A stretch of DNA of 42,797 nucleotides from Mycobacterium sp. Marseille-P9652 (GTDB lineage: Bacteria > Actinomycetota > Actinomycetes > Mycobacteriales > Mycobacteriaceae): contig NZ_CACRUY010000046.1 in assembly GCF_902652685.1 (NCBI RefSeq), forward strand, positions 1 to 42,797. The letters run 5' to 3'. Below the pieces are notes generated by a model. The model worked only from the letters and a program-made list of their open reading frames with translations. It was not told the DNA's origin and made no database searches. Positions 7,564-17,600 of the stretch are shown here, piece after piece. How positions within the stretch are numbered: position 1 is the stretch's first letter; each line of letters opens with the position of its first letter. The position numbers were made by a program, and so were the translations under genes.

Positions 7564-10500
7564 CTAGACCATTGCCCGGGCCCAATCGATATGTCCCTCG
7601 AAGCCAAGCGAATTCGCCATGTCGCGGTAGCGGTCGCGGAAGCTTACGTACGCGACTTCGTCACCGCGGGCCCGCGCCAGCAGCGCCCGCAGACGCAGCA
7701 GCCAGATGTCGCGCATGACCAGGGCTTCATCGGCGGCCGCGGCTGCCAAGCGCTCGATCGCGACCTCGGCCTCGGCGATGTCACACTCCGCGCCCCGCTC
7801 GAGCAACGTCTCCACCAGCACACCGGCTGTGCAGACGCTCCACACCGGCTGTTGTCCCTCCCGGACTAGGTCGTCCACGACTGACCGCATGAGCGGAATC
7901 GCCTCATCGCGTTCGCCGCATCGAGCCCTCTCGCGTGCCGAATAGACTTTGAACAGAGGCACATCGAACATGTTGTGTTTTCGGTGTAGACACGCTTCGC
8001 CGGCCTCGTCGAGCAGCGTCTGTCCGCTGGAACGCTCCGCATCCTTCTGACGGTGAACCAACGCAAGGCCCAAAGTCGCCCGGGCGAGGTCCAGCGCCAG
8101 GTCGTCCGCGGATCGTTCGGCAATCCGTAGCGCATCCTCGATCTCGCGCATCGCTGAATCGTCGGGCCGGAGCACGCCAAGCGGTATGCCCGGCCAGTAC
8201 ACGTAACCGACGCCCGCGGCGTACGACAACGAGTCCGCGCTGCGGGCCATCGCCAGGCCGTCACGCAGGTCGTCGCGCCACCCGGGATGACCCAAGCAAT
8301 ACCTGGCAAATGCGCGCGTCGCGAACGCGAGCGCTAATGGAGACCCAATAAGCAAGTTGCCTTTGGCAGGGTCGCGGTCGGCCAGGTCGATGACGCGCTG
8401 TGACCACCGCAGCACGTCACTCCACTCGCCGCTCTCAAACTTGGCGTAGATCGGCCCAAAGGACAGGCCCACCGTCAACGTTGGGTCGCCAAGTGACTCA
8501 ACGAGGGCCCACGATTCCGACGCCAACCGCGACGCCTCGCGGATCCGGGCTCGCCAAGCGTGAACCGTCACCAGCCCCGCCATGCCGATGGCCAGCGACG
8601 CCTTATCCCCTTCGTCAGTACACAACTGCTGCAATTCCTCAAAGCGGTCTCCGGCGACATCAACCTGGACTCGATAGGCAGTGCCGCACAGCATGGTGCG
8701 AGGAGCAATGCGCATGGCTGCCCGGTCAGGGTCCTCGGCGGGTAAAGCGTCGGCGATTTCTACCGCTCGTTGCCAGCTGAATTCCGCGGCAGCGATGTCG
8801 CGGTTGGTGGCCCAGGTCGCCGCGCGCATGTGCCAGCCGTAGGCGCTGCGCGGATCGCCGGCAGCATCCAGATGCCGGGCTATCAGCGCCGCGTTCTCCT
8901 CGGTAGCGGGGTCACCTGACTCGAGTACATTCGCCACGCGCCGGTGCAATTCGGCGCGGTCCGACTTGAGCTGCGCCTCGTAGGCCACCGCGCGGATCAG
9001 CGGGTGATGAAAGACGTAGTCGGGTTGGGGGGCCAAGCCGACCTGATCAATGAGCTGGGCCGCGACCAAGTCGTCGGTCACCGGTTCGACGCCGAGCCTC
9101 CGAAGAAGTCCGAGGCTGAACCGCGAGCCGATCACCGCCGCCGCGTTGAGCGTGCGCTTGGCGGCTGGCTCGAGTCGATCGATGCGGGCCCCGATAGTCG
9201 CCTGCAAGGTGGCCGGCACGGTGGCATCATTCGTATCCGCGGCCGACACGTAGGCTCCGGCCTGGCCCTGAAGCACCCCGCGCTCGGCGAGTTCGCGCAC
9301 CATCTCCTCGGCGAAATACGGGTTGCCCGCGGCCCTTTCGACGATCCTCGGGCCGAGGTTTCCGACCGAGGGGTCCTCACCGATCAACTCGCGGACGAGT
9401 GCCGTCATTTCCGAATCACTCAGCGGCGCAAGGCAAATGGTGTGGGCGCCCGCCACGCGGCTGAGCGCGCCCCGATACTCGGGCCGGTAGGTGATCAGCA
9501 CCAGCGACGGAGTCCGGGGGATTACCTCGAGGAACGCGATCAGCATCGATTCGCTGGCCGCGTCGATCCAGTGGACGTCCTCGATGACGTAAACCGTTGG
9601 CGTGTTGCGGGCCAGGGATGCCGCATTCACCAATGACGTCAAACGCCGCCGGCGGGCGTCCGGGTCGATCTTGGGCAGCGCAGCGTCGGGATCTGCGATA
9701 CCCAAGAGGTCATCCAAGAGTGCCATGTCCTCGGGGTCGGCGCCGCGGACTCTGGCGCGGAGGCGGGCGCGAGCCGCCTGTGGATCGAGACCGTCGACGC
9801 CGGTGTTCGTGCGTAACAATCGGGCCACGACGTGGAACGCGATATCAGCGGCGTGCGATTCGCAGGAGGTGGTGAACACCTCGGCATTTTGGCGGCGGGC
9901 CAGCGCGGCGACCTCCCGCACCAGACGGCTCTTGCCGATGCCGGGCGACCCCACGACGCCGACGATGGCGCCGTGGCCGGTGATGGCGCGGTTCAGCAGG
10001 TGCTCGACGGTTGTCAGCTCCCACTGACGGCCGACCAGTTTCGACTCGGAGCGCGCGGTAATGCGACGCCCGTCGCCCGCACTCAGGAGGCGATACGCCG
10101 CGACCGGCTCGTCCGCCCCCTTGATGTGAACGATTTCGGCCTCGCACAGGTTGGCGGCGCCCTCAACAAGTCGCGCGGTCGACGCGCTGAGCATGACCCC
10201 GCCCGGCGGCGCCACCGATTCCATTCGCTGGGCCATGCCGACCTGTTCGCCCACGGCGGCGTAACCGAAATGGCCCGAACCCAAGCCGCCGGCCGTCACC
10301 TGGCCGGAGTTGAGCCCCACCCGCAATCGCAGTTCCACGCCGTCCCGCTCCGCGATCGCGTCCGCGAGCCGTTTCGCCTCCTCCTGAATGCCCAGCGCGG
10401 CGAGGCAGGCGCGGACGGCGTGGTCCTCCAGAGCGACCGGCGCGCCGAACACCGCCATGATCCCGTCACCGGTGAATTGTGTGACCGTGCAGCCGTACCG

Positions 10501-10734
10501 CCGCACCGCCGTCGCGCAGCGATCGGTGAGGTCGGCCATGATCTCCCGAAGTCGCTCCGCGCCGACCACTGCGGCGAGGTCCATCCAATGGACGACGTCG
10601 GCGAATAACACCGTCACCTGCTTGTACTCGGCGGAAGCATGGTGTTCGGCGATGGGTGCACCGCATCGGTCGCAGAAGCGCGCACCATCGCGCGCCCTCG
10701 TGCCGCATAAGTGGCAGGCGGCCGCTGCGGTCAT
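7564..10734 (-). CDS. Zinc-ribbon / class III nucleotide cyclase / STAND ATPase regulator
   Basis: A 1056-aa cytoplasmic signalling protein. Order: zinc ribbon with Cys7, Cys10, Cys21, Cys24; class III adenylate/guanylate cyclase domain (about 36-215) with metal-binding Asp46 (LFADVV) and Asp90 (FTGDG); AAA/STAND ATPase with Walker A GSPGIGKS (262-269) and Walker B VYVIED (381-386); then a long helical TPR-like tail. The transition-state Asn of canonical cyclases (VNxAxR) is Gly here (VGMAQR), with the Arg kept, so activity is uncertain. No C-terminal LuxR HTH is visible, unlike M. tuberculosis cyclase-ATPase-HTH proteins such as Rv0386. GGAGGTCGG precedes the ATG. It is divergent from the PE-lipase gene and absent from this place in M. 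tuberculosis. Confidence 0.88.
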   Translation of the reverse strand: MTAAAACHLCGTRARDGARFCDRCGAPIAEHHASAEYKQVTVLFADVVHWMDLAAVVGAERLREIMADLTDRCATAVRRYGCTVTQFTGDGIMAVFGAPVALEDHAVRACLAALGIQEEAKRLADAIAERDGVELRLRVGLNSGQVTAGGLGSGHFGYAAVGEQVGMAQRMESVAPPGGVMLSASTARLVEGAANLCEAEIVHIKGADEPVAAYRLLSAGDGRRITARSESKLVGRQWELTTVEHLLNRAITGHGAIVGVVGSPGIGKSRLVREVAALARRQNAEVFTTSCESHAADIAFHVVARLLRTNTGVDGLDPQAARARLRARVRGADPEDMALLDDLLGIADPDAALPKIDPDARRRRLTSLVNAASLARNTPTVYVIEDVHWIDAASESMLIAFLEVIPRTPSLVLITYRPEYRGALSRVAGAHTICLAPLSDSEMTALVRELIGEDPSVGNLGPRIVERAAGNPYFAEEMVRELAERGVLQGQAGAYVSAADTNDATVPATLQATIGARIDRLEPAAKRTLNAAAVIGSRFSLGLLRRLGVEPVTDDLVAAQLIDQVGLAPQPDYVFHHPLIRAVAYEAQLKSDRAELHRRVANVLESGDPATEENAALIARHLDAAGDPRSAYGWHMRAATWATNRDIAAAEFSWQRAVEIADALPAEDPDRAAMRIAPRTMLCGTAYRVQVDVAGDRFEELQQLCTDEGDKASLAIGMAGLVTVHAWRARIREASRLASESWALVESLGDPTLTVGLSFGPIYAKFESGEWSDVLRWSQRVIDLADRDPAKGNLLIGSPLALAFATRAFARYCLGHPGWRDDLRDGLAMARSADSLSYAAGVGYVYWPGIPLGVLRPDDSAMREIEDALRIAERSADDLALDLARATLGLALVHRQKDAERSSGQTLLDEAGEACLHRKHNMFDVPLFKVYSARERARCGERDEAIPLMRSVVDDLVREGQQPVWSVCTAGVLVETLLERGAECDIAEAEVAIERLAAAAADEALVMRDIWLLRLRALLARARGDEVAYVSFRDRYRDMANSLGFEGHIDWARAMV

Positions 10735-10893
10735 CCGACCTCCGCGCTCGGCCCCCCAAGCTTCAGGTCCACCAGCATAGGGCGCTGACCAGCGGCAGGT
10801 TGAAGAAGTGCAGTACTCCGCTACTGAATTCCCTGGGGCTGCGCCGCCGGACGATGGGCGTCAACCGGTGGGCCTACGAGGAGGCAGGCGGAC
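10735..10893. other. Divergent intergenic region between cyclase and PE-lipase
   Basis: These 159 bases must hold the promoters of both divergent genes. A 5-bp inverted repeat, CAGTA-N6-TACTG (10811-10826), is the only dyad I noticed and could be an operator, but it is too short to be convincing. No clear -10 element was assigned. Confidence 0.35.
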
Positions 10894-12249
10894 ATGTCGT
10901 TTGTATTCACCGCACCGGAGCTGATGAGCTCAGCGGCAGAGGATTTGGTTTCCATCGGTGTCGATCTCAACGCAGCCCACGCGGCGGCGGCCACCCGGAC
11001 CACGGCGGTGCTGGCCGCCGCCGAGGACGAGGTGTCGGCGGCGATTGCGGAGCTGTTCTCCGCTCACGGTCAAACCTTCCGGGCGCTCGGTGCCCAGGCG
11101 GCGGCGTTCCATGACCAATTGGTGGGGACGCTGAGCGCGGCGGCGGGCCAGTATGCGGCGGCGGAGGCCGCCAATGTCGTCGCCGCGGCGGCGAGTCCCC
11201 TGCAGACCGTGGAACAGGACCTGCAGGGTGTGATCAACGCGGTCGTCACCGAAATCTTCGGCTCCCCGGCCGGTCCGCCGATCCCGGCAAATCAGCCGGC
11301 GACCTTCACCGGCGCGGTGTCGCTGGCAACCAAATTCGAGAACAACGTGCTGTTGTGGCCGCTGAAGCAGCTGTGGAGCATACCCGCCGTCTACCAGCAG
11401 CTTGCGACGCCCAGTTCTCCCGTGTTGTCGCTGTTCACGGGCGACAACCCGCTGATGGGCTGGTTGATGGGCAACTCGCCTCCGCCGCTCTTGCCCATGT
11501 TGCTGGGAGAGACGGTGCAGTACACCAGCTACAACGGGATGAGCGTCGTGCAAATCACGCCGGCCCACCCGTCCGGCAACTACGTGGTTGCGCTGCACGG
11601 CGGTGGCTTCATCCTCCCGCCATTGATCCTGCATTGGGTGGACTACACGGTGATGGCCTACCAGACCGGCGCGACCATCGAAGTGCCGATCTACCCCTTG
11701 CTTCAGCAGGGAGGCACCGCCGGGACGGTGGTGCCGAACGTCGCCGGTTTCATCTCCGCCCAAATTGCGGCACACGGGGCGTCGCACGTCAGCGTGCAGG
11801 GTGACTCCGCGGGCGGCAGCATTGCCCTGGCCGCCGCCGAATACCTGGTGGCCCACAACCAAGCCGTCCCGTCCTCAATGGTTTTGCTGGCGCCATGGCT
11901 GGACGCAACCGTCAGCAATCCCAACATCCCGCTCGTGCGCGATCCCTTCCTCCCGCCCGTCGAATTCGGTCAAGAGCTCGGCAGGGCGTGGGCGGGCAAT
12001 CTTCCCTTGGACGACCCTCTCGCGAGCCCGCTCTACGGGTCACTCAAGGGTCTTCCTCCGACGACTGTCTACGCGGGCTCACTGGATTCCAACACGCCAA
12101 ACACCCTTGTCCTCCAGCAAGAAGCAGCATTGCAAGGGGCACCGATGAGCTTCGTCTACGCCACCGGCGGAATCCACGACTGGGTTCTGGTCACCCTGGA
12201 CGGGGTCCGTTACTGGCCGCAGATCGACCAGGAACTCGGTATCGCGTAG
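10894..12249 (+). CDS. PE-domain lipase/esterase (LipY-type, HSL family)
   Basis: A 451-aa protein with an N-terminal PE domain (about 1-95, [10 protein letters not shown]) that carries the type VII secretion signal YxxxE at Tyr87-Glu91. A linker is followed by an alpha/beta-hydrolase of the hormone-sensitive-lipase family: oxyanion HGGG (235-238), nucleophile Ser305 in GDSAGG, Asp398 and His428. The Asp-His spacing of 30 equals that recalled for M. tuberculosis LipY (Rv3097c), a triacylglycerol lipase. It is probably exported by an ESX system (ESX-5 by analogy) to act on lipids in the cell envelope or outside. GAGGAGG lies nine bases before the ATG. No PPE partner is adjacent. Its stop is six bases from the stop of the convergent LuxR gene. 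Confidence 0.9.
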
Positions 12250-12255
12250 AGGCGC

Positions 12256-14871
12256 CTAATTCGTTTGCGGCCGCGGTATCAGGGCGCCGAGTTCGTCGCG
12301 GCTCGCGGTGCCGGTCTTCGCCATCGCCCGGTAGATGTGGCTCTCGACGGTGCGCACCGAGAGCACAAGGCGTTCGGCGATGGCGCGGTTGGAGCATCCC
12401 TCGCCGATCAGCGTCACGATCTCACGTTCGCGTTCGGTGAACGGGACGGGTTCGTTGGCCTGTCGAAGCGCGGGAGTCCATGCGCCCCCGCATCGTTCGG
12501 CCAGCGCCTCAGCGCGCGCCGCGCATGCCAGAGCCGACCCCCGGAGCCCCTGGCCGCGATACGCCAGGGCGGCGTAGGCGGCTGCGTCGATGGCGGCAAC
12601 CATGTCGCCCATCCGCTCGAATTCCTCTGACACCTCACCTAATTCAGCGGCATTGCCGTCGCGCAAGGCGGCCGAGAACCGCGCGGCGGTGCCGGCACGT
12701 GGTCCCTCAACGACCGTTTTGAGGTCACGCAACCGTGCTGAGCCCGAGCGGTCACCGAACTGCGCGGCGGTCTGCAGACAGAACACCTCGGCCGCGAGCT
12801 GACCCTTGGCCGCGGCCCTGTCGGCCGCCGACCGCGCGAGGGCGATCGCCTCGGTGGCGGCGCCTTGACCGGCCGCCACCCATGCCCGGGCCAGGCTCCG
12901 TTCATAATCCAGCAGCCGGAAGGGACGCCGTTGCTCGTCGAGCGTGTCAAGGGTGGCGGCTGCCTCGGCCGTCCGACCGCGCATGGCGAGGGTGGTGGCA
13001 CGCGGCACGTGATAGCGAAATCCCCAGCCCAGCGCGTGCGTGGCGGAGAGGCCCACTGCGGCCTGGTCGAGCAGCGCGGCCGCCGAATCCAGGCATCCGG
13101 CGCCGAGTGCGGCCCGACCCGCCACCGCGGGACCCAACAATTGGGCCGCACCCGGCAGGTCGGCCGCCTGCCGGTGCACCTGCTCGGCCAGCTCGAGCGC
13201 GTCGGCGATCCGGCCGGCCAGCAGCAGCGCGCTCACGTGTGCGTCGGCGATGTTGAACCTCATGTGCGGAGCGTCGAAGGACCGCGCCGCGGCGGCATAC
13301 CCGGTCTCGGCGGCGGCCACGGCTTCGCTCACGCGACCCGCATCGGCCGGGATCGCGGTCAGGGCAAAGGCGATTTCGGCGCCCACGACGGCCGGCAACT
13401 CGTCCAACGCAAGGTGCTGCGACGCGCGGATCGCCGCTTCCGGCTCGTCAACCGCAAACCAGTAGACGGTGAGAAAGGCATCGATATAGCTGCGGGCTTG
13501 TGGTGAGGTGGCCGGTGCGGCCGCGTCGATGAGTTCTTTCGCCCGTGCCGGGTCGCCCAGCGCCCACAGCATGTTGCTGGCCCGCAGGAACGCAAGTCTG
13601 GCACGCTCGGCATCGCTCAACTGGTCGGCATCGACGCCGCCCAGCACCGCCTCGGCCTCCTCGGCCCGGCCCATCCACGAAAGCGCATGACCCCGAACAA
13701 AATTCGGTTCTGGGCCGCCTCCCGCGCGCATGGCCGCCTCCGCGAGTCGATCGGCGAGGGGCAGATCGGCCAGCCACACGGCGCCATGGGCGGCCTTCAC
13801 CAGCAGGTGGGCGTCCGGTGTGAGGTCGGAGTCGAGGCTCAACGCGGCGCGCCGCACGACGACCTGAATGTCGTCGTGGTCATCGGCTTCGGCGAGTTCG
13901 CAGGCGACCTGACCGCGCAAGCGTCGCAGGCGGGTCGCCGCGGCGCTTCTGCGGCGCACCTCGCCGTACATGGGATGCGCCACACGCACTTCCATGCCGC
14001 CGGCGACGGGCTCGACTGAGATGAGGCCGCGGGTTTCGGCCTCCTCGACCGCGGCCCGATCGGTGATACGGGTGAGGCACGCCAGTTCGATCGGCTCCCC
14101 GACGGCCACCACGTCGATCACATCGCTGACACGCTCGGGAAGTGCCCCGATGCGCGATTCGATGAGCTCGACCAGGCCCGGTGGCATGACGGGATCGCCA
14201 AGCCACCGCCAGTACCCCTGCTCCTGCACGATTCGGCCGTCGGCGACCTCCTGCTCGACGATGTTGCGCAGGTAGAGAACGTTGCCGCGGGTCAGCTTCC
14301 ACAACCGTTGTGAGGCAACCGGATCCATCGGTCCACCCAAGGCGTCCGACAAGAGTTTGGCGGTTTCGTCCGCTGACAACGGCTGCAGGTCGAGCCGGTC
14401 GAAATGGCTGAGCGCCCATATTTCTCGCACAGCGTCGGGGACCGGTTCACCGTCGCGAATGGTGAGAATCAGCTTCGCCTGGCCACGTTGGACGAGTTGG
14501 TGCACGACGAAGATCGACAGATCGTCGAGCAACGGCACGTCGTCGACGCAGATCACCACCGGCGCGGCCGTCGATGCCGGCGTCAGCGAATCGATCACCC
14601 CGCTCAGCAGTTGAACCGTGTCGGTGACCCCCGACGGCGCCCAGGCCGTGAAGGCACCCAGCGGAATGGTTCGCGACAACGACGTGCCGACCACCCACCG
14701 GCATTCCCAGCCGCGGGACCGCGCGGCGGAGAGGGCCTCACGGGCGACCCGGCTCTTGCCCACACCCGCCGCCCCACAGATGAGGATTCCCGAAGCATCC
14801 GGCGCCGAGATGGCGGCCCGCACGGCTGCCATCTCCTCGGAGCGACCGATCAACGGCCACGTCAGGCGCAC
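12256..14871 (-). CDS. Large ATP-binding LuxR-family transcriptional regulator
   Basis: An 871-aa regulator of the LAL/STAND type. It has an N-terminal ATPase with Walker A GAAGVGKS (33-40) and Walker B VVICVDD (105-111), a long Ala-rich helical, TPR-like middle, and a C-terminal LuxR/GerE helix-turn-helix (about 805-865, FTEREREIVTLIGEGCSNRA then RTVESHIYRAMAKTG). Such proteins usually bind a ligand or partner through the repeats and activate genes. The target is unknown; the convergent PE-lipase and the upstream kinase are the obvious candidates. The GTG start at 14871 is 33 bases after the kinase stop and sits six bases after a TAAGCT -10 element, so it may have its own leaderless transcript. 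It resembles the split cyclase-less regulators of M. tuberculosis. Confidence 0.88.
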   Translation of the reverse strand: MRLTWPLIGRSEEMAAVRAAISAPDASGILICGAAGVGKSRVAREALSAARSRGWECRWVVGTSLSRTIPLGAFTAWAPSGVTDTVQLLSGVIDSLTPASTAAPVVICVDDVPLLDDLSIFVVHQLVQRGQAKLILTIRDGEPVPDAVREIWALSHFDRLDLQPLSADETAKLLSDALGGPMDPVASQRLWKLTRGNVLYLRNIVEQEVADGRIVQEQGYWRWLGDPVMPPGLVELIESRIGALPERVSDVIDVVAVGEPIELACLTRITDRAAVEEAETRGLISVEPVAGGMEVRVAHPMYGEVRRRSAAATRLRRLRGQVACELAEADDHDDIQVVVRRAALSLDSDLTPDAHLLVKAAHGAVWLADLPLADRLAEAAMRAGGGPEPNFVRGHALSWMGRAEEAEAVLGGVDADQLSDAERARLAFLRASNMLWALGDPARAKELIDAAAPATSPQARSYIDAFLTVYWFAVDEPEAAIRASQHLALDELPAVVGAEIAFALTAIPADAGRVSEAVAAAETGYAAAARSFDAPHMRFNIADAHVSALLLAGRIADALELAEQVHRQAADLPGAAQLLGPAVAGRAALGAGCLDSAAALLDQAAVGLSATHALGWGFRYHVPRATTLAMRGRTAEAAATLDTLDEQRRPFRLLDYERSLARAWVAAGQGAATEAIALARSAADRAAAKGQLAAEVFCLQTAAQFGDRSGSARLRDLKTVVEGPRAGTAARFSAALRDGNAAELGEVSEEFERMGDMVAAIDAAAYAALAYRGQGLRGSALACAARAEALAERCGGAWTPALRQANEPVPFTEREREIVTLIGEGCSNRAIAERLVLSVRTVESHIYRAMAKTGTASRDELGALIPRPQTN

Positions 14872-14904: not shown

Positions 14905-16644
14905 CTAGCCCACCGTCACCGATTTGATCGTGACCGTGGACGACGGCATGCCGCTCTCCCGGTTGCCGGCCACACCCAGCTTGGCGATCTTGTCGAGGGT
15001 CGCCAGCCCCGCCTCGTCGACCGTGCCGAATACCGTTGACTCCGGGTTGATTTCGGCGTCGCGGTAGACCATGAAGAACTGGCTCTCGTTGGTGTTGGGC
15101 CCGGCGGTGGCCATGGCGACGGTCCCGCGCGGGTACAGCACCGTCGCCTTGAGCGCGGGGTCGTCCGCCTTGTACTGATTGGTGGGGTACTCGTCGGCGT
15201 ATTCGTATCCCGGGCCGCCGCTGCCCTCGTTGTCGGGGCCGCCGCACATCAGCGTTCCCTCCTCTTTCGCGTCGACCAGCCGGCCACACTCGGTGTTGTC
15301 GAAGAACTGCTGTCTGGCCAGGCTGACGAAGCTGTTGACCGCGCAAGGGGATTCGGAGTTGGCGAGCTGGATGCCGATGTCACCGAAGTTGGTGGAGATG
15401 GTCGCGTGGATCTGCGCGGGTTCGGTCGACACCGGGCCCGACGGCGGCGGGTTCACCGGCTTGGTGGACGGGTCCGGTGCGGGCGGGTACTGGCAGTCGG
15501 CGCCGGGCTGGGTGGGGGGCGCGAACGCGGGCAGCGGCGGCACGGTCCCGGCGGCCTGGGCGGTCGACCCGGGCGCGGATCCGGGCCGCGCGGGCGCCTT
15601 GCCGCGCGTCGGCGACGGCGAGGCCGTGCTGCTCGCGTTGTCGTGGCTGTGGGTCACCAGCGAGACCACCAGCGCCACCACCGCGGCCAGCGCGACCAGT
15701 GACCCGCCGACGATGCCGACGATGAGCCGCCGGTTGGAGGTGGCGGCCGCAGGCGGTGGAGGGGTGATCGGCGGCGGCATGGGCCCGGGCGGCATCGGCC
15801 CGGGCGCCTGGGGTGCGGGCGCGCCCGTCAGCGCCGCCCGGGCGGCCTCGGCGAGCTCGATGGCCGTCTGGTAGCGCTCGTCGACGTCCTTGGCCATCCC
15901 GCGGGCGACCACCTCGTCGAAGGCCGGTGGGATGTCGGGCGCGCTCGCCGACGGTCGCGGCGGTGGCGTGTTCAGGTGCGCGTTGAGCTGCTCCTCGAGG
16001 TTGTCGCCGGTGAAAGGCCGCTTGCCGGTGAGGCATTCGTACAGCACGCAGGCCAGGGAGTAGACGTCGGCGCGGTGATCGGTTGTGCCCCTGAACCGCT
16101 CGGGCGCCAGGTAGGCGACAGTGCCCATGGTGGCCCCGGTCTGCGTGAGCGCGGTGTCGTTCATCGATCGTGCCAGGCCGAAGTCGATCAGGTAGACGAA
16201 GTCCCGCGCGGTGGTCACCAGGATGTTCTTCGGTTTGATGTCACGGTGGACCAGCCCCACCCGGTGGGCGCTATCCAGCGCCGCCGCAACCTGTTCGATG
16301 ATGGCGACGGTGCGTTCGGGGCTCAACCGTCCGCCGTTCTCGACGATGTACTCGGCCAGGTCGCGTCCCTCGATCAGCCGCATGTCGACGTACAGCCGGC
16401 CGTCGAGTTCGCCGTAACCGTGGATGGGCACGATGTGGGGATCGTTGAGACCCGCGGCAATGCGCGCCTCCCGCCGGAACCGGCGCTGAAAATCGTCGTC
16501 TTCAGCCAGATGTGGAGGGAGGACTTTGAGCGCCACCACCCGATCCGTCGTGGCGTCGTAGGCGCGGTACACGCGCCCCATGCCGCCGCGCCCGAGCAAC
16601 CCCTGTATCTGGTAGTGCCCGAACGTTTCCGGATCGATACTCAT
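14905..16644 (-). CDS. Receptor Ser/Thr protein kinase with extracytoplasmic cyclophilin domain
   Basis: A 579-aa PknB-type receptor kinase. The cytoplasmic kinase (about 11-270) has Gly loop GRGGMG (18-23), Lys40, HRD 133-135 with KPKN, DFG 154-156, Thr-rich activation loop and APE 180-182, so it should be active. A Pro-rich juxtamembrane stretch (275-300) leads to one membrane helix (about 306-331) and a Ser/Pro linker. The outer domain (about 405-579) is a cyclophilin-type peptidyl-prolyl isomerase with Arg455 and SQFFMVY kept. His before the catalytic Arg is Gly. Four Cys (384, 434, 453, 467) match those of the neighbouring PpiB and may form disulfides. I know no M. tuberculosis kinase with this sensor. 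It follows ppiB by 56 bases. Confidence 0.92.
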   Translation of the reverse strand: MSIDPETFGHYQIQGLLGRGGMGRVYRAYDATTDRVVALKVLPPHLAEDDDFQRRFRREARIAAGLNDPHIVPIHGYGELDGRLYVDMRLIEGRDLAEYIVENGGRLSPERTVAIIEQVAAALDSAHRVGLVHRDIKPKNILVTTARDFVYLIDFGLARSMNDTALTQTGATMGTVAYLAPERFRGTTDHRADVYSLACVLYECLTGKRPFTGDNLEEQLNAHLNTPPPRPSASAPDIPPAFDEVVARGMAKDVDERYQTAIELAEAARAALTGAPAPQAPGPMPPGPMPPPITPPPPAAATSNRRLIVGIVGGSLVALAAVVALVVSLVTHSHDNASSTASPSPTRGKAPARPGSAPGSTAQAAGTVPPLPAFAPPTQPGADCQYPPAPDPSTKPVNPPPSGPVSTEPAQIHATISTNFGDIGIQLANSESPCAVNSFVSLARQQFFDNTECGRLVDAKEEGTLMCGGPDNEGSGGPGYEYADEYPTNQYKADDPALKATVLYPRGTVAMATAGPNTNESQFFMVYRDAEINPESTVFGTVDEAGLATLDKIAKLGVAGNRESGMPSSTVTIKSVTVG

Positions 16645-16651
16645 CTGAACG

Positions 16652-16657
16652 ACGATA
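16652..16657 (-). promoter_or_regulatory. -10 element for leaderless kinase mRNA
   Basis: Minus-strand TATCGT (TANNNT) is followed by seven bases and then the kinase ATG. No good Shine-Dalgarno is present, which fits leaderless initiation. Confidence 0.45.
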
Positions 16658-16700
16658 ACGAATCACGGCCCGGAAACGGTGATTCGCACCGCTCGAAGGG

Positions 16701-17600
16701 TCAGTCGAGCAGTATCGACTTGATGGTGACGTCGACGGCCGGCGGCCCGTCCTCGCCGCCGCCGGCGACGCCGGCCTTGGCGATCTTGTCAAGAACGGCG
16801 AGCCCGTCGGGCTGGATCGTGCCGAACACCGTGTACTGCGGCGGCAACTGAGAATCCTTGTACACCATGAAGAACTGGCTGCCATTGGTGCCGGGCCCGG
16901 CGTTGGCCATGGCCAGCGTTCCGCGCGGGTACAGCACCGGCTCCTGCGCCTTCGGGTCGTTCGGCGGGTACTGGTCGGTCGGGTACTCGTTGGCGAACTG
17001 ATAGCCGGGACCGCCCGTCCCATCACCCTTGGGGTCGCCGCACTGCAGGACGCCCAAATTCGCGGAGGTGGTCAACCGGTGGCACTTGGTGTTGTCGAAG
17101 TACTTCTGGCCGATCAGGCTCGCGAAACTATTGACGGTGCAAGGTGATTCGTTGTTGGCCAGCATCAGCCCGAGGTTGCCCTGGCTGGTCGCCATGCTCG
17201 CGCTCACCTGGGCCGGGTCGGTGGGGATCTTGCCGGTCCGCGGCGGCTTGACCGGCTTTGCCGCCGGTTCCTGAGGCGTCGCCTGGTACTGGCAGTTGGC
17301 GCCGAGGTTGGCCGACGGCTTGAACGGCGGCAGAGGCGGGGTCGATCCCGTCTGGGGCGGGGTTTCGCTGGTGGACGCGGGCGCGCTGCTGCTCGGGGTG
17401 GTGGTCGACGCGGTATTGGTCTTGTGCTCGTGCTTGGTGTTGACGACCGCGATCACGGCCACGACGATCACGGCCAGCGCCAGGGCCGAGCCGGCGGCGA
17501 TGACGATGATGCGGCGCCGCTTGGCCTGCTTCTGGCGCCGCTCGAGCTGACGTTCGAGTTTGCGCTTGGCGTTGGCGCGTCGCTGTTCGTTCGTCGGCAC
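16701..17600 (-). CDS. ppiB: Membrane-anchored peptidyl-prolyl cis-trans isomerase B
   Basis: A 299-aa cyclophilin. It has a basic cytoplasmic N-terminus, one membrane anchor (about 28-54), a Ser/Thr/Pro linker and an extracytoplasmic isomerase domain (about 125-299). That domain has the catalytic CHRL (Arg55 of cyclophilin A), SQFFMVY and YTVFGTI. It would catalyse prolyl isomerisation of exported proteins. Four Cys (in ANCQY, SPCTVN, TKCHR, LQCGD) are shared with the kinase sensor domain. The GTG start gives VPTNEQRR, matching M. tuberculosis Rv2582 as recalled (PTNAQRR), with GGAGG upstream. It is the first of three consecutive minus-strand genes (ppiB, kinase, LuxR) and is divergent from the glyoxalase gene. 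Confidence 0.94.
   Translation of the reverse strand: MPTNEQRRANAKRKLERQLERRQKQAKRRRIIVIAAGSALALAVIVVAVIAVVNTKHEHKTNTASTTTPSSSAPASTSETPPQTGSTPPLPPFKPSANLGANCQYQATPQEPAAKPVKPPRTGKIPTDPAQVSASMATSQGNLGLMLANNESPCTVNSFASLIGQKYFDNTKCHRLTTSANLGVLQCGDPKGDGTGGPGYQFANEYPTDQYPPNDPKAQEPVLYPRGTLAMANAGPGTNGSQFFMVYKDSQLPPQYTVFGTIQPDGLAVLDKIAKAGVAGGGEDGPPAVDVTIKSILLD

Follow-up and report, generated by a model that had tools for sequence, protein, structure and literature searches.

How a peptidyl-prolyl isomerase could come to form the outer domain of a bacterial receptor kinase, and what it might do there, is the question raised by a pair of genes on a contig of Mycobacterium sp. Marseille-P9652 (NZ_CACRUY010000046.1; the whole stretch analyzed, 42,797 nucleotides in length, is referred to below as the window). 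One gene encodes a Ser/Thr kinase that ends in a cyclophilin domain, and the other is ppiB (Table 1).

Table 1. Coordinates of the kinase–cyclophilin gene, its domains and its neighbours in the window.
Feature	Position	Strand	Product or residues	Basis or remark
ppiB, membrane-anchored cyclophilin	16701..17600	-	299 aa, P0002	56 nt upstream of the kinase gene
Kinase–TM–cyclophilin fusion gene	14905..16644	-	579 aa, P0001	Full-length relatives elsewhere
Hanks-type Ser/Thr kinase domain	15871..16614	-	Residues 11-258	Pfam PF00069, invariant columns
Single membrane helix	15652..15729	-	Residues 306-331	AlphaFold2 helix and hydropathy peak
Cyclophilin domain	14911..15402	-	Residues 415-578	Pfam PF00160, structure model and fold matches
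AAA/LuxR regulator	12256..14871	-		Pfam; same strand, 33 nt downstream of the kinase gene
PE-domain hydrolase	10894-12249	+		Between kinase and relA in the window
Cyclase/AAA protein	7564-10734	-		Between kinase and relA in the window

Judged by its architecture, namely kinase motifs, a single transmembrane helix and a predicted outer fold, the fusion protein is a receptor-type, PknB-like Hanks Ser/Thr kinase. It scores 155.1 bits with PF00069, and its kinase motifs are all intact (Lys40, HRD 133–135 and DFG 154–156), with no variation in them among 38 intact fusions aligned. The best relative of solved structure is PknE (2h34; 302.1 bits), and the NCBIfam model of StpK7 (NF052427) matches residues 4–369 only, with 451.6 bits, below its curated cut-off of 900, which leaves the protein outside StpK7. 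A Pro/Thr/Ser-rich linker connects the membrane helix to the outer folded part, which spans residues ~403 to 579 in the AlphaFold2 model. The cyclophilin domain exceeds the PF00160 gathering cut-off, is well modelled and also matches the fold, and from the predicted orientation of the protein it probably lies outside the membrane. Its sequence is 56% identical to that of the adjacent PpiB. An intact catalytic core, one membrane helix and a cyclophilin sharing more than half its residues with PpiB had all been noticed by eye in an earlier note on this DNA, and these observations, like the fold that the note had proposed to model, are borne out.

The same note was aware of no earlier description of such a kinase in mycobacteria, a statement contradicted by the work of Krupa and Srinivasan (2005; PMC1262709). 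That paper describes a “kinase + transmembrane segment + peptidyl-prolyl isomerase” in M. avium subsp. paratuberculosis (gi|41407147), an architecture then thought to be unique to M. avium among the sequenced mycobacteria, and suggests a role in folding. The window fusion falls into this class, with its N-terminal kinase, central TM segment and C-terminal Pro_isomerase domain in a Mycobacterium; compared by description, the two proteins share domain order and genus and are very probably of the same family. The section on the fusion contains no analysis of its origin, neighbours, active site or distribution. The further possibility, that the fusion was already known as a characterized kinase, thus holds in part: it had been described in PMC1262709, and no characterization was found in openly licensed papers. 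PMC1262709 was the sole description found among the openly licensed papers examined, which yielded no experimental study of the kinase–cyclophilin design; the words isomerase, cyclophilin and paratuberculosis are absent from the text of PMC2877116. What is new below, as far as this literature shows, is how widely the fusion occurs, that it arose more than once, that other anchors exist and that the active site has decayed.

A search of mycobacterial genomes, which the earlier note had suggested, was carried out with the outer part of the fusion (residues 366–579) in 396 Mycobacterium genomes, the counts being taken by reading the rows of matches. A clearly related, fused-type cyclophilin is found in at least 60 of the 396 genomes. 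It lies in a single frame of at least 527 aa in 54 of them; in the remaining six the frame is shorter, cut by a contig end, a run of N, a stop or a rearrangement. Outside this set are one further genome (G261) and seven with other fusions. Of 30 loci retrieved in the genus search, 27 were verified to hold kinase and cyclophilin in one frame, and the other genomes of the 54 were judged on frame length unless their locus was fetched separately. Among the named carriers in which one frame encodes both domains are M. alsense, M. nebraskense, M. colombiense, M. triplex, M. paraense, M. interjectum DSM 44064 and Candidatus M. methanotrophicum. An artefactual or chance origin of the fusion is ruled out: it recurs across many genomes, and the mapped loci share one gene order.

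The gene is not intact everywhere. It is broken or inverted in M. bohemicum (L046, L139), M. lepraemurium (L106), M. genavense (L045, L133), the ATCC record of M. interjectum (L122) and L047/L111. As the two M. interjectum records disagree on whether the gene is intact, some of the breaks may be sequence errors. The gene is dispensable, given that several records have it in broken or rearranged form and that the search did not find it in the majority of genomes. In Mycobacterium sp. 4858 (L101:1950-5620), pieces of kinase and ppiB lie on both strands, as would result from an inverted duplication or from an artefact of the contig. Outside the genus, a kinase accompanied none of 20 cyclophilin loci at family level (151 genomes searched, ten of the same genus; loci picked mainly for long frames) and none of 18 long-frame loci from PF00160 surveys of the class (69 genomes) and phylum (70 genomes), and no kinase was present in eight further non-Mycobacterium loci either. 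In this thin survey, the kinase–cyclophilin fusion was not found outside Mycobacterium.

Where mapped, the fusion gene lies between ppiB and relA. In 28 loci mapped with flanks, the order, where the contig permits, is hisS, gloB, then ppiB and the kinase gene on the opposite strand, then relA; the exceptions are L047, which is rearranged, and L061, a paralogue at another place. This paralogue (L061:1477-3321, + strand; G070) is a related kinase of the same kinase group, and its outer domain resembles, by eye, an amino-acid-binding-protein-like sensor. A complete free PpiB adjoins the fusion in all intact loci whose contig extends that far. Roughly 27–156 nt separate ppiB from the kinase gene in 48 loci (domain ends, same-strand neighbours), and in the window the two genes probably share one transcript. 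There, three extra genes (7564-14871) separate the kinase from relA; the LuxR/AAA regulator and the cyclase have no match in any of the 28 loci compared, among which the regulator is particular to the window genome. MAP 1050c, a 33 kDa cyclophilin-type isomerase in an antigen panel of M. avium subsp. paratuberculosis (Table 1 of PMC3389728), could, from its size, correspond to the unfused PpiB encoded here.

Two variants of the arrangement occur. Five mapped genomes (L054–L058) and M. asiaticum carry, beside ppiB, a kinase-only gene whose product ends in a short Thr-rich tail, and in M. asiaticum a short cyclophilin fragment (L155:5672-5841) is located between ppiB and the kinase that lacks the outer domain. 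Conversely, two kinase–cyclophilin genes follow ppiB in tandem in several genomes (L042, L043, L126, L129, L135, L187, L188, L190 and L191), with the first copy interrupted in L042 and L187.

To trace the origin of the fused domain, 82 cyclophilin domains were picked from the 204 of a quick tree and placed in a more careful one; the two trees agree in outline. Rows on the window's side of the tree are termed slow growers and the remaining Mycobacterium rows fast growers, labels taken from taxonomy. The slow-grower cyclophilins form one group (support 100/98), and the main fused clade, which includes the window domain, is a single branch inside it (100/99). The L140 and L142 fusions group with this branch (98/82), as does an unfused second cyclophilin from Mycobacterium sp. 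1245111.1. By its place in this tree, the fused domain is of mycobacterial PpiB descent, but the adjacent ppiB is its sister and no recent parent, the two having separated near the base of the clade or earlier. The earlier note had proposed that ppiB was duplicated and fused to a PknB-type kinase, with a cyclophilin tree as the check; the sensor domain does fall within the mycobacterial PpiB lineage, not far from PpiB, and the part of the proposal that has to be given up is the adjacent gene as likely parent, the split being old. A recent copy of the adjacent ppiB is ruled out by the tree as the source of the main-clade domain.

Such an origin comes close to the truth for the fusions of the G036 and G155 type. 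At these two loci (L059 and L112, respectively), the fused PpiB nests among the free PpiBs of close relatives, and a stretch like PpiB's basic N-terminal tail is retained between kinase and membrane helix, which looks like a separate joining of a kinase to a whole ppiB. On the sequence evidence, then, kinase and PpiB were joined at this locus at least twice. The kinases of the locus nevertheless cluster together (81 rows; SH-aLRT 91, a modest support), so that kinase and ppiB were probably neighbours early. L046 is sister to the window kinase in the kinase tree.

A second cyclophilin beside ppiB is present in many genomes of the family, with two or more cyclophilins in 16 of 20 fetched loci, and these second copies have membrane anchors of their own. 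A lipobox-like signal was recognized by eye in L156, L180 and L182 and, within the genus, in L138, L272 and L275; Pfam finds a DUF4190 membrane domain in the fast-grower loci L134 and L176, and the same motif is visible in ten more. Close relatives (77–100%) of the lipoprotein-type copy of L138 occur in four of 392 genus genomes, with a lipobox noted in two of the four. Since relatives carry such differently anchored second cyclophilins beside ppiB, the kinase may have replaced the anchor of a pre-existing one. Uniting the fused domain with the fast-grower second cyclophilins in one clade is disfavoured by 27 to 30 log units but is not rejected by the AU test (p 0.088 and 0.084); nor does that test reject uniting all second-position copies of the window clade, fused and unfused (L138), with p 0.457. 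The membrane helix of the fusion is more similar to that of free PpiB (mean local score 70.5, 44.9 when shuffled) than to that of the kinase-only relatives (53.0, 36.9 when shuffled).

We then compared the active sites, with sites named by human CypA numbering and with a list of CypA pocket residues. In the window domain, Gly454 replaces His54 before a retained catalytic Arg455, as had been noticed earlier, and Thr464, Cys467, Thr513, Phe524, Ile532 and Ser536 occupy further CypA-type sites. Six of the 11 pocket residues are kept, including Arg455 and Phe524, and five are lost (replaced by Gly454, Thr464, Thr513, Ile532 and Ser536), making the window domain intermediate in pocket loss. It lacks the complete motif of active PPIases of the PpiB type, the only type that this motif covers (Arg55 with His54, Asn102, Phe113, Leu122 and Tyr126). 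Residues were counted in 87 free slow-grower PpiBs and 68 main-clade fused domains, eight of the latter from broken or cut copies. His is found at position 54 in 85 of the 87 free PpiBs and in none of the 68 fused domains; Asn102 in 84 against 11; and Arg55, Phe113, Leu122 and Tyr126, each present in all 87 free proteins, in 58, 15, 10 and 3 of the 68, respectively. Free PpiB itself differs from CypA by Cys at 63 and Tyr at 126. The first three cysteines are kept in 67, 67 and 68 of the 68 fused domains, and the fourth in 56. Outside the main clade, seven of eight fusions keep all 11 pocket residues, L173 being the exception (mean retention 0.97).

Pocket decay in the main clade is therefore plain, and we asked how far it is confined to the pocket. 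In the 113 free PpiBs, 102 columns are at least 95% fixed. At 6 of the 11 that belong to the pocket, versus 17 of the 91 others, fewer than half of the 60 fused rows retain the residue of the free proteins (Fisher p 0.015). If positions 112 and 129 are added to the pocket, the counts become 6 of 13 versus 17 of 89 (p 0.068). These p values are rough, since the pocket list is carried over from CypA and the rows are related. The comparison suggests a restriction to the pocket that depends on the set of columns, and as 17 fixed columns outside the pocket changed too, part of the change may be plain relaxation. The retention of Arg55 in most rows, and of Phe113 in the window, makes residual catalysis possible. 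Taken with the residue counts, the losses at pocket columns lend support to the earlier suggestion that the domain may bind more than catalyse, which we consider likely.

Could the fused domains nevertheless act as PPIases or chaperones? Seven of the eight fusions outside the main clade have the pocket for it, Arg55 persists in most of the main clade, and M. tuberculosis PpiB is reported (PMC4794191) to be an active PPIase and chaperone; the lack of His54 throughout the main clade, the scarcity there of Phe113, Leu122 and Tyr126, and the full free PpiB already next door make this reading unlikely. Distinctly improbable is a cyclophilin that serves purely for oligomerization or structure, with no specific ligand. 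It would agree with the oligomeric state reported for recombinant M. tuberculosis PpiB (same source), although that protein was GST-tagged, and with the kinase-only form, which implies that the kinase can do without the domain; yet groove residues seem more changed than the rest, subject to the column set, which a pure scaffold would not predict.

Selection on the three coding regions was estimated from dN/dS. In six pairs with the window, the values are 0.29–0.46 for the fused domain, about two to three times those of ppiB (0.10–0.16), and 0.13–0.19 for the kinase; in four closer pairs the fused domain has 0.11–0.21 versus 0.05–0.12 for ppiB, and in one of these it is not higher. The fused domain is under purifying selection, which in the six window pairs is weaker than that on kinase and ppiB. 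That the gene is on its way out, its relaxed domain being of no current use, kept for a time after the fusion and often lost, would fit these higher values and the broken or rearranged genes of the several species noted above, but we rank it lowest of all in view of dN/dS well below 1 even in close pairs, the long open frame in 54 of the at least 60 genomes and the tandem duplications kept in several.

Instead, we propose that the fusion is a one-component receptor kinase in which an exported isomerase was captured as input domain and turned into a binding sensor, an account that we think somewhat more probable than otherwise. The Hanks-type kinase would lie in the cytoplasm, followed by one membrane helix, the Pro/Thr/Ser-rich linker and the cyclophilin fold outside. 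The isomerase would have been captured by the neighbouring kinase, and in the older capture the site would have decayed while fold and cysteines stayed: the main-clade cyclophilin has lost much of its proline pocket and has kept its fold, the first three cysteines and usually Arg55. This is what is expected of a domain kept for binding, but relaxed constraint alone could also produce it. The outer domain might bind some exported or envelope protein at a stretch that contains proline, or else a partner such as PpiB, while isomerizing it inefficiently or not at all, and ligand binding or clustering would then pair two kinase domains for trans-autophosphorylation. In PknB-type kinases, dimerization drives trans-autophosphorylation, and it is from these that we infer activation by ligand-driven dimerization; the sensing role and the ligand class are likewise read from the sequence, as predictions, whereas the architecture, its conservation, the gene order with ppiB, the decay of the site and the two or more joinings are directly legible in it. 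M. tuberculosis PpiB is reported to bind cyclosporin A (PMC6333787), and together with its reported isomerase and chaperone activities (PMC4794191) this makes a binding role plausible for its fused relative.

A wider form of this proposal is put forward tentatively, as possible rather than probable. An exported isomerase would have been captured at least twice at one locus as the input of a receptor kinase, and the catalytic pocket of the older capture dismantled while a complete PpiB stayed adjacent. The locus would then offer a graded set of natural proteins, with young fusions of intact pocket at the enzyme end and the main clade as pure sensors at the other, and with the kinase reading the prolyl clients or partners of PpiB.

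Several known systems resemble the fusion in part. PknE of M. tuberculosis, the nearest solved kinase, has a thioredoxin-like outer domain in place of the cyclophilin; we take it to be the kinase gi|2131007, in which case it is like the window fusion in bearing a folding enzyme outside. For gi|2131007, PMC1262709 describes an extracellular DsbA-like domain. PknQ of M. ulcerans (PMC4238996) is also a mycobacterial kinase with a domain of exported proteins outside, but that sensor is FepB-like and the gene is megaplasmid-borne. TRIMCyp, the TRIM5–cyclophilin of primates and rodents, is a parallel for the independent and repeated joining of a cyclophilin to another protein; unlike the fusion, it is eukaryotic, retrotransposed and antiviral and has no kinase.

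The sensor described here has a traceable lineage and a living, unfused sister gene beside it. To our knowledge, the inputs sensed by mycobacterial receptor kinases are largely open. Versions with an intact pocket, with a decayed pocket, with the kinase only and with an unfused second cyclophilin coexist in nature, and as they span the steps from folding enzyme to signal input, each step could be assayed by comparing natural proteins.
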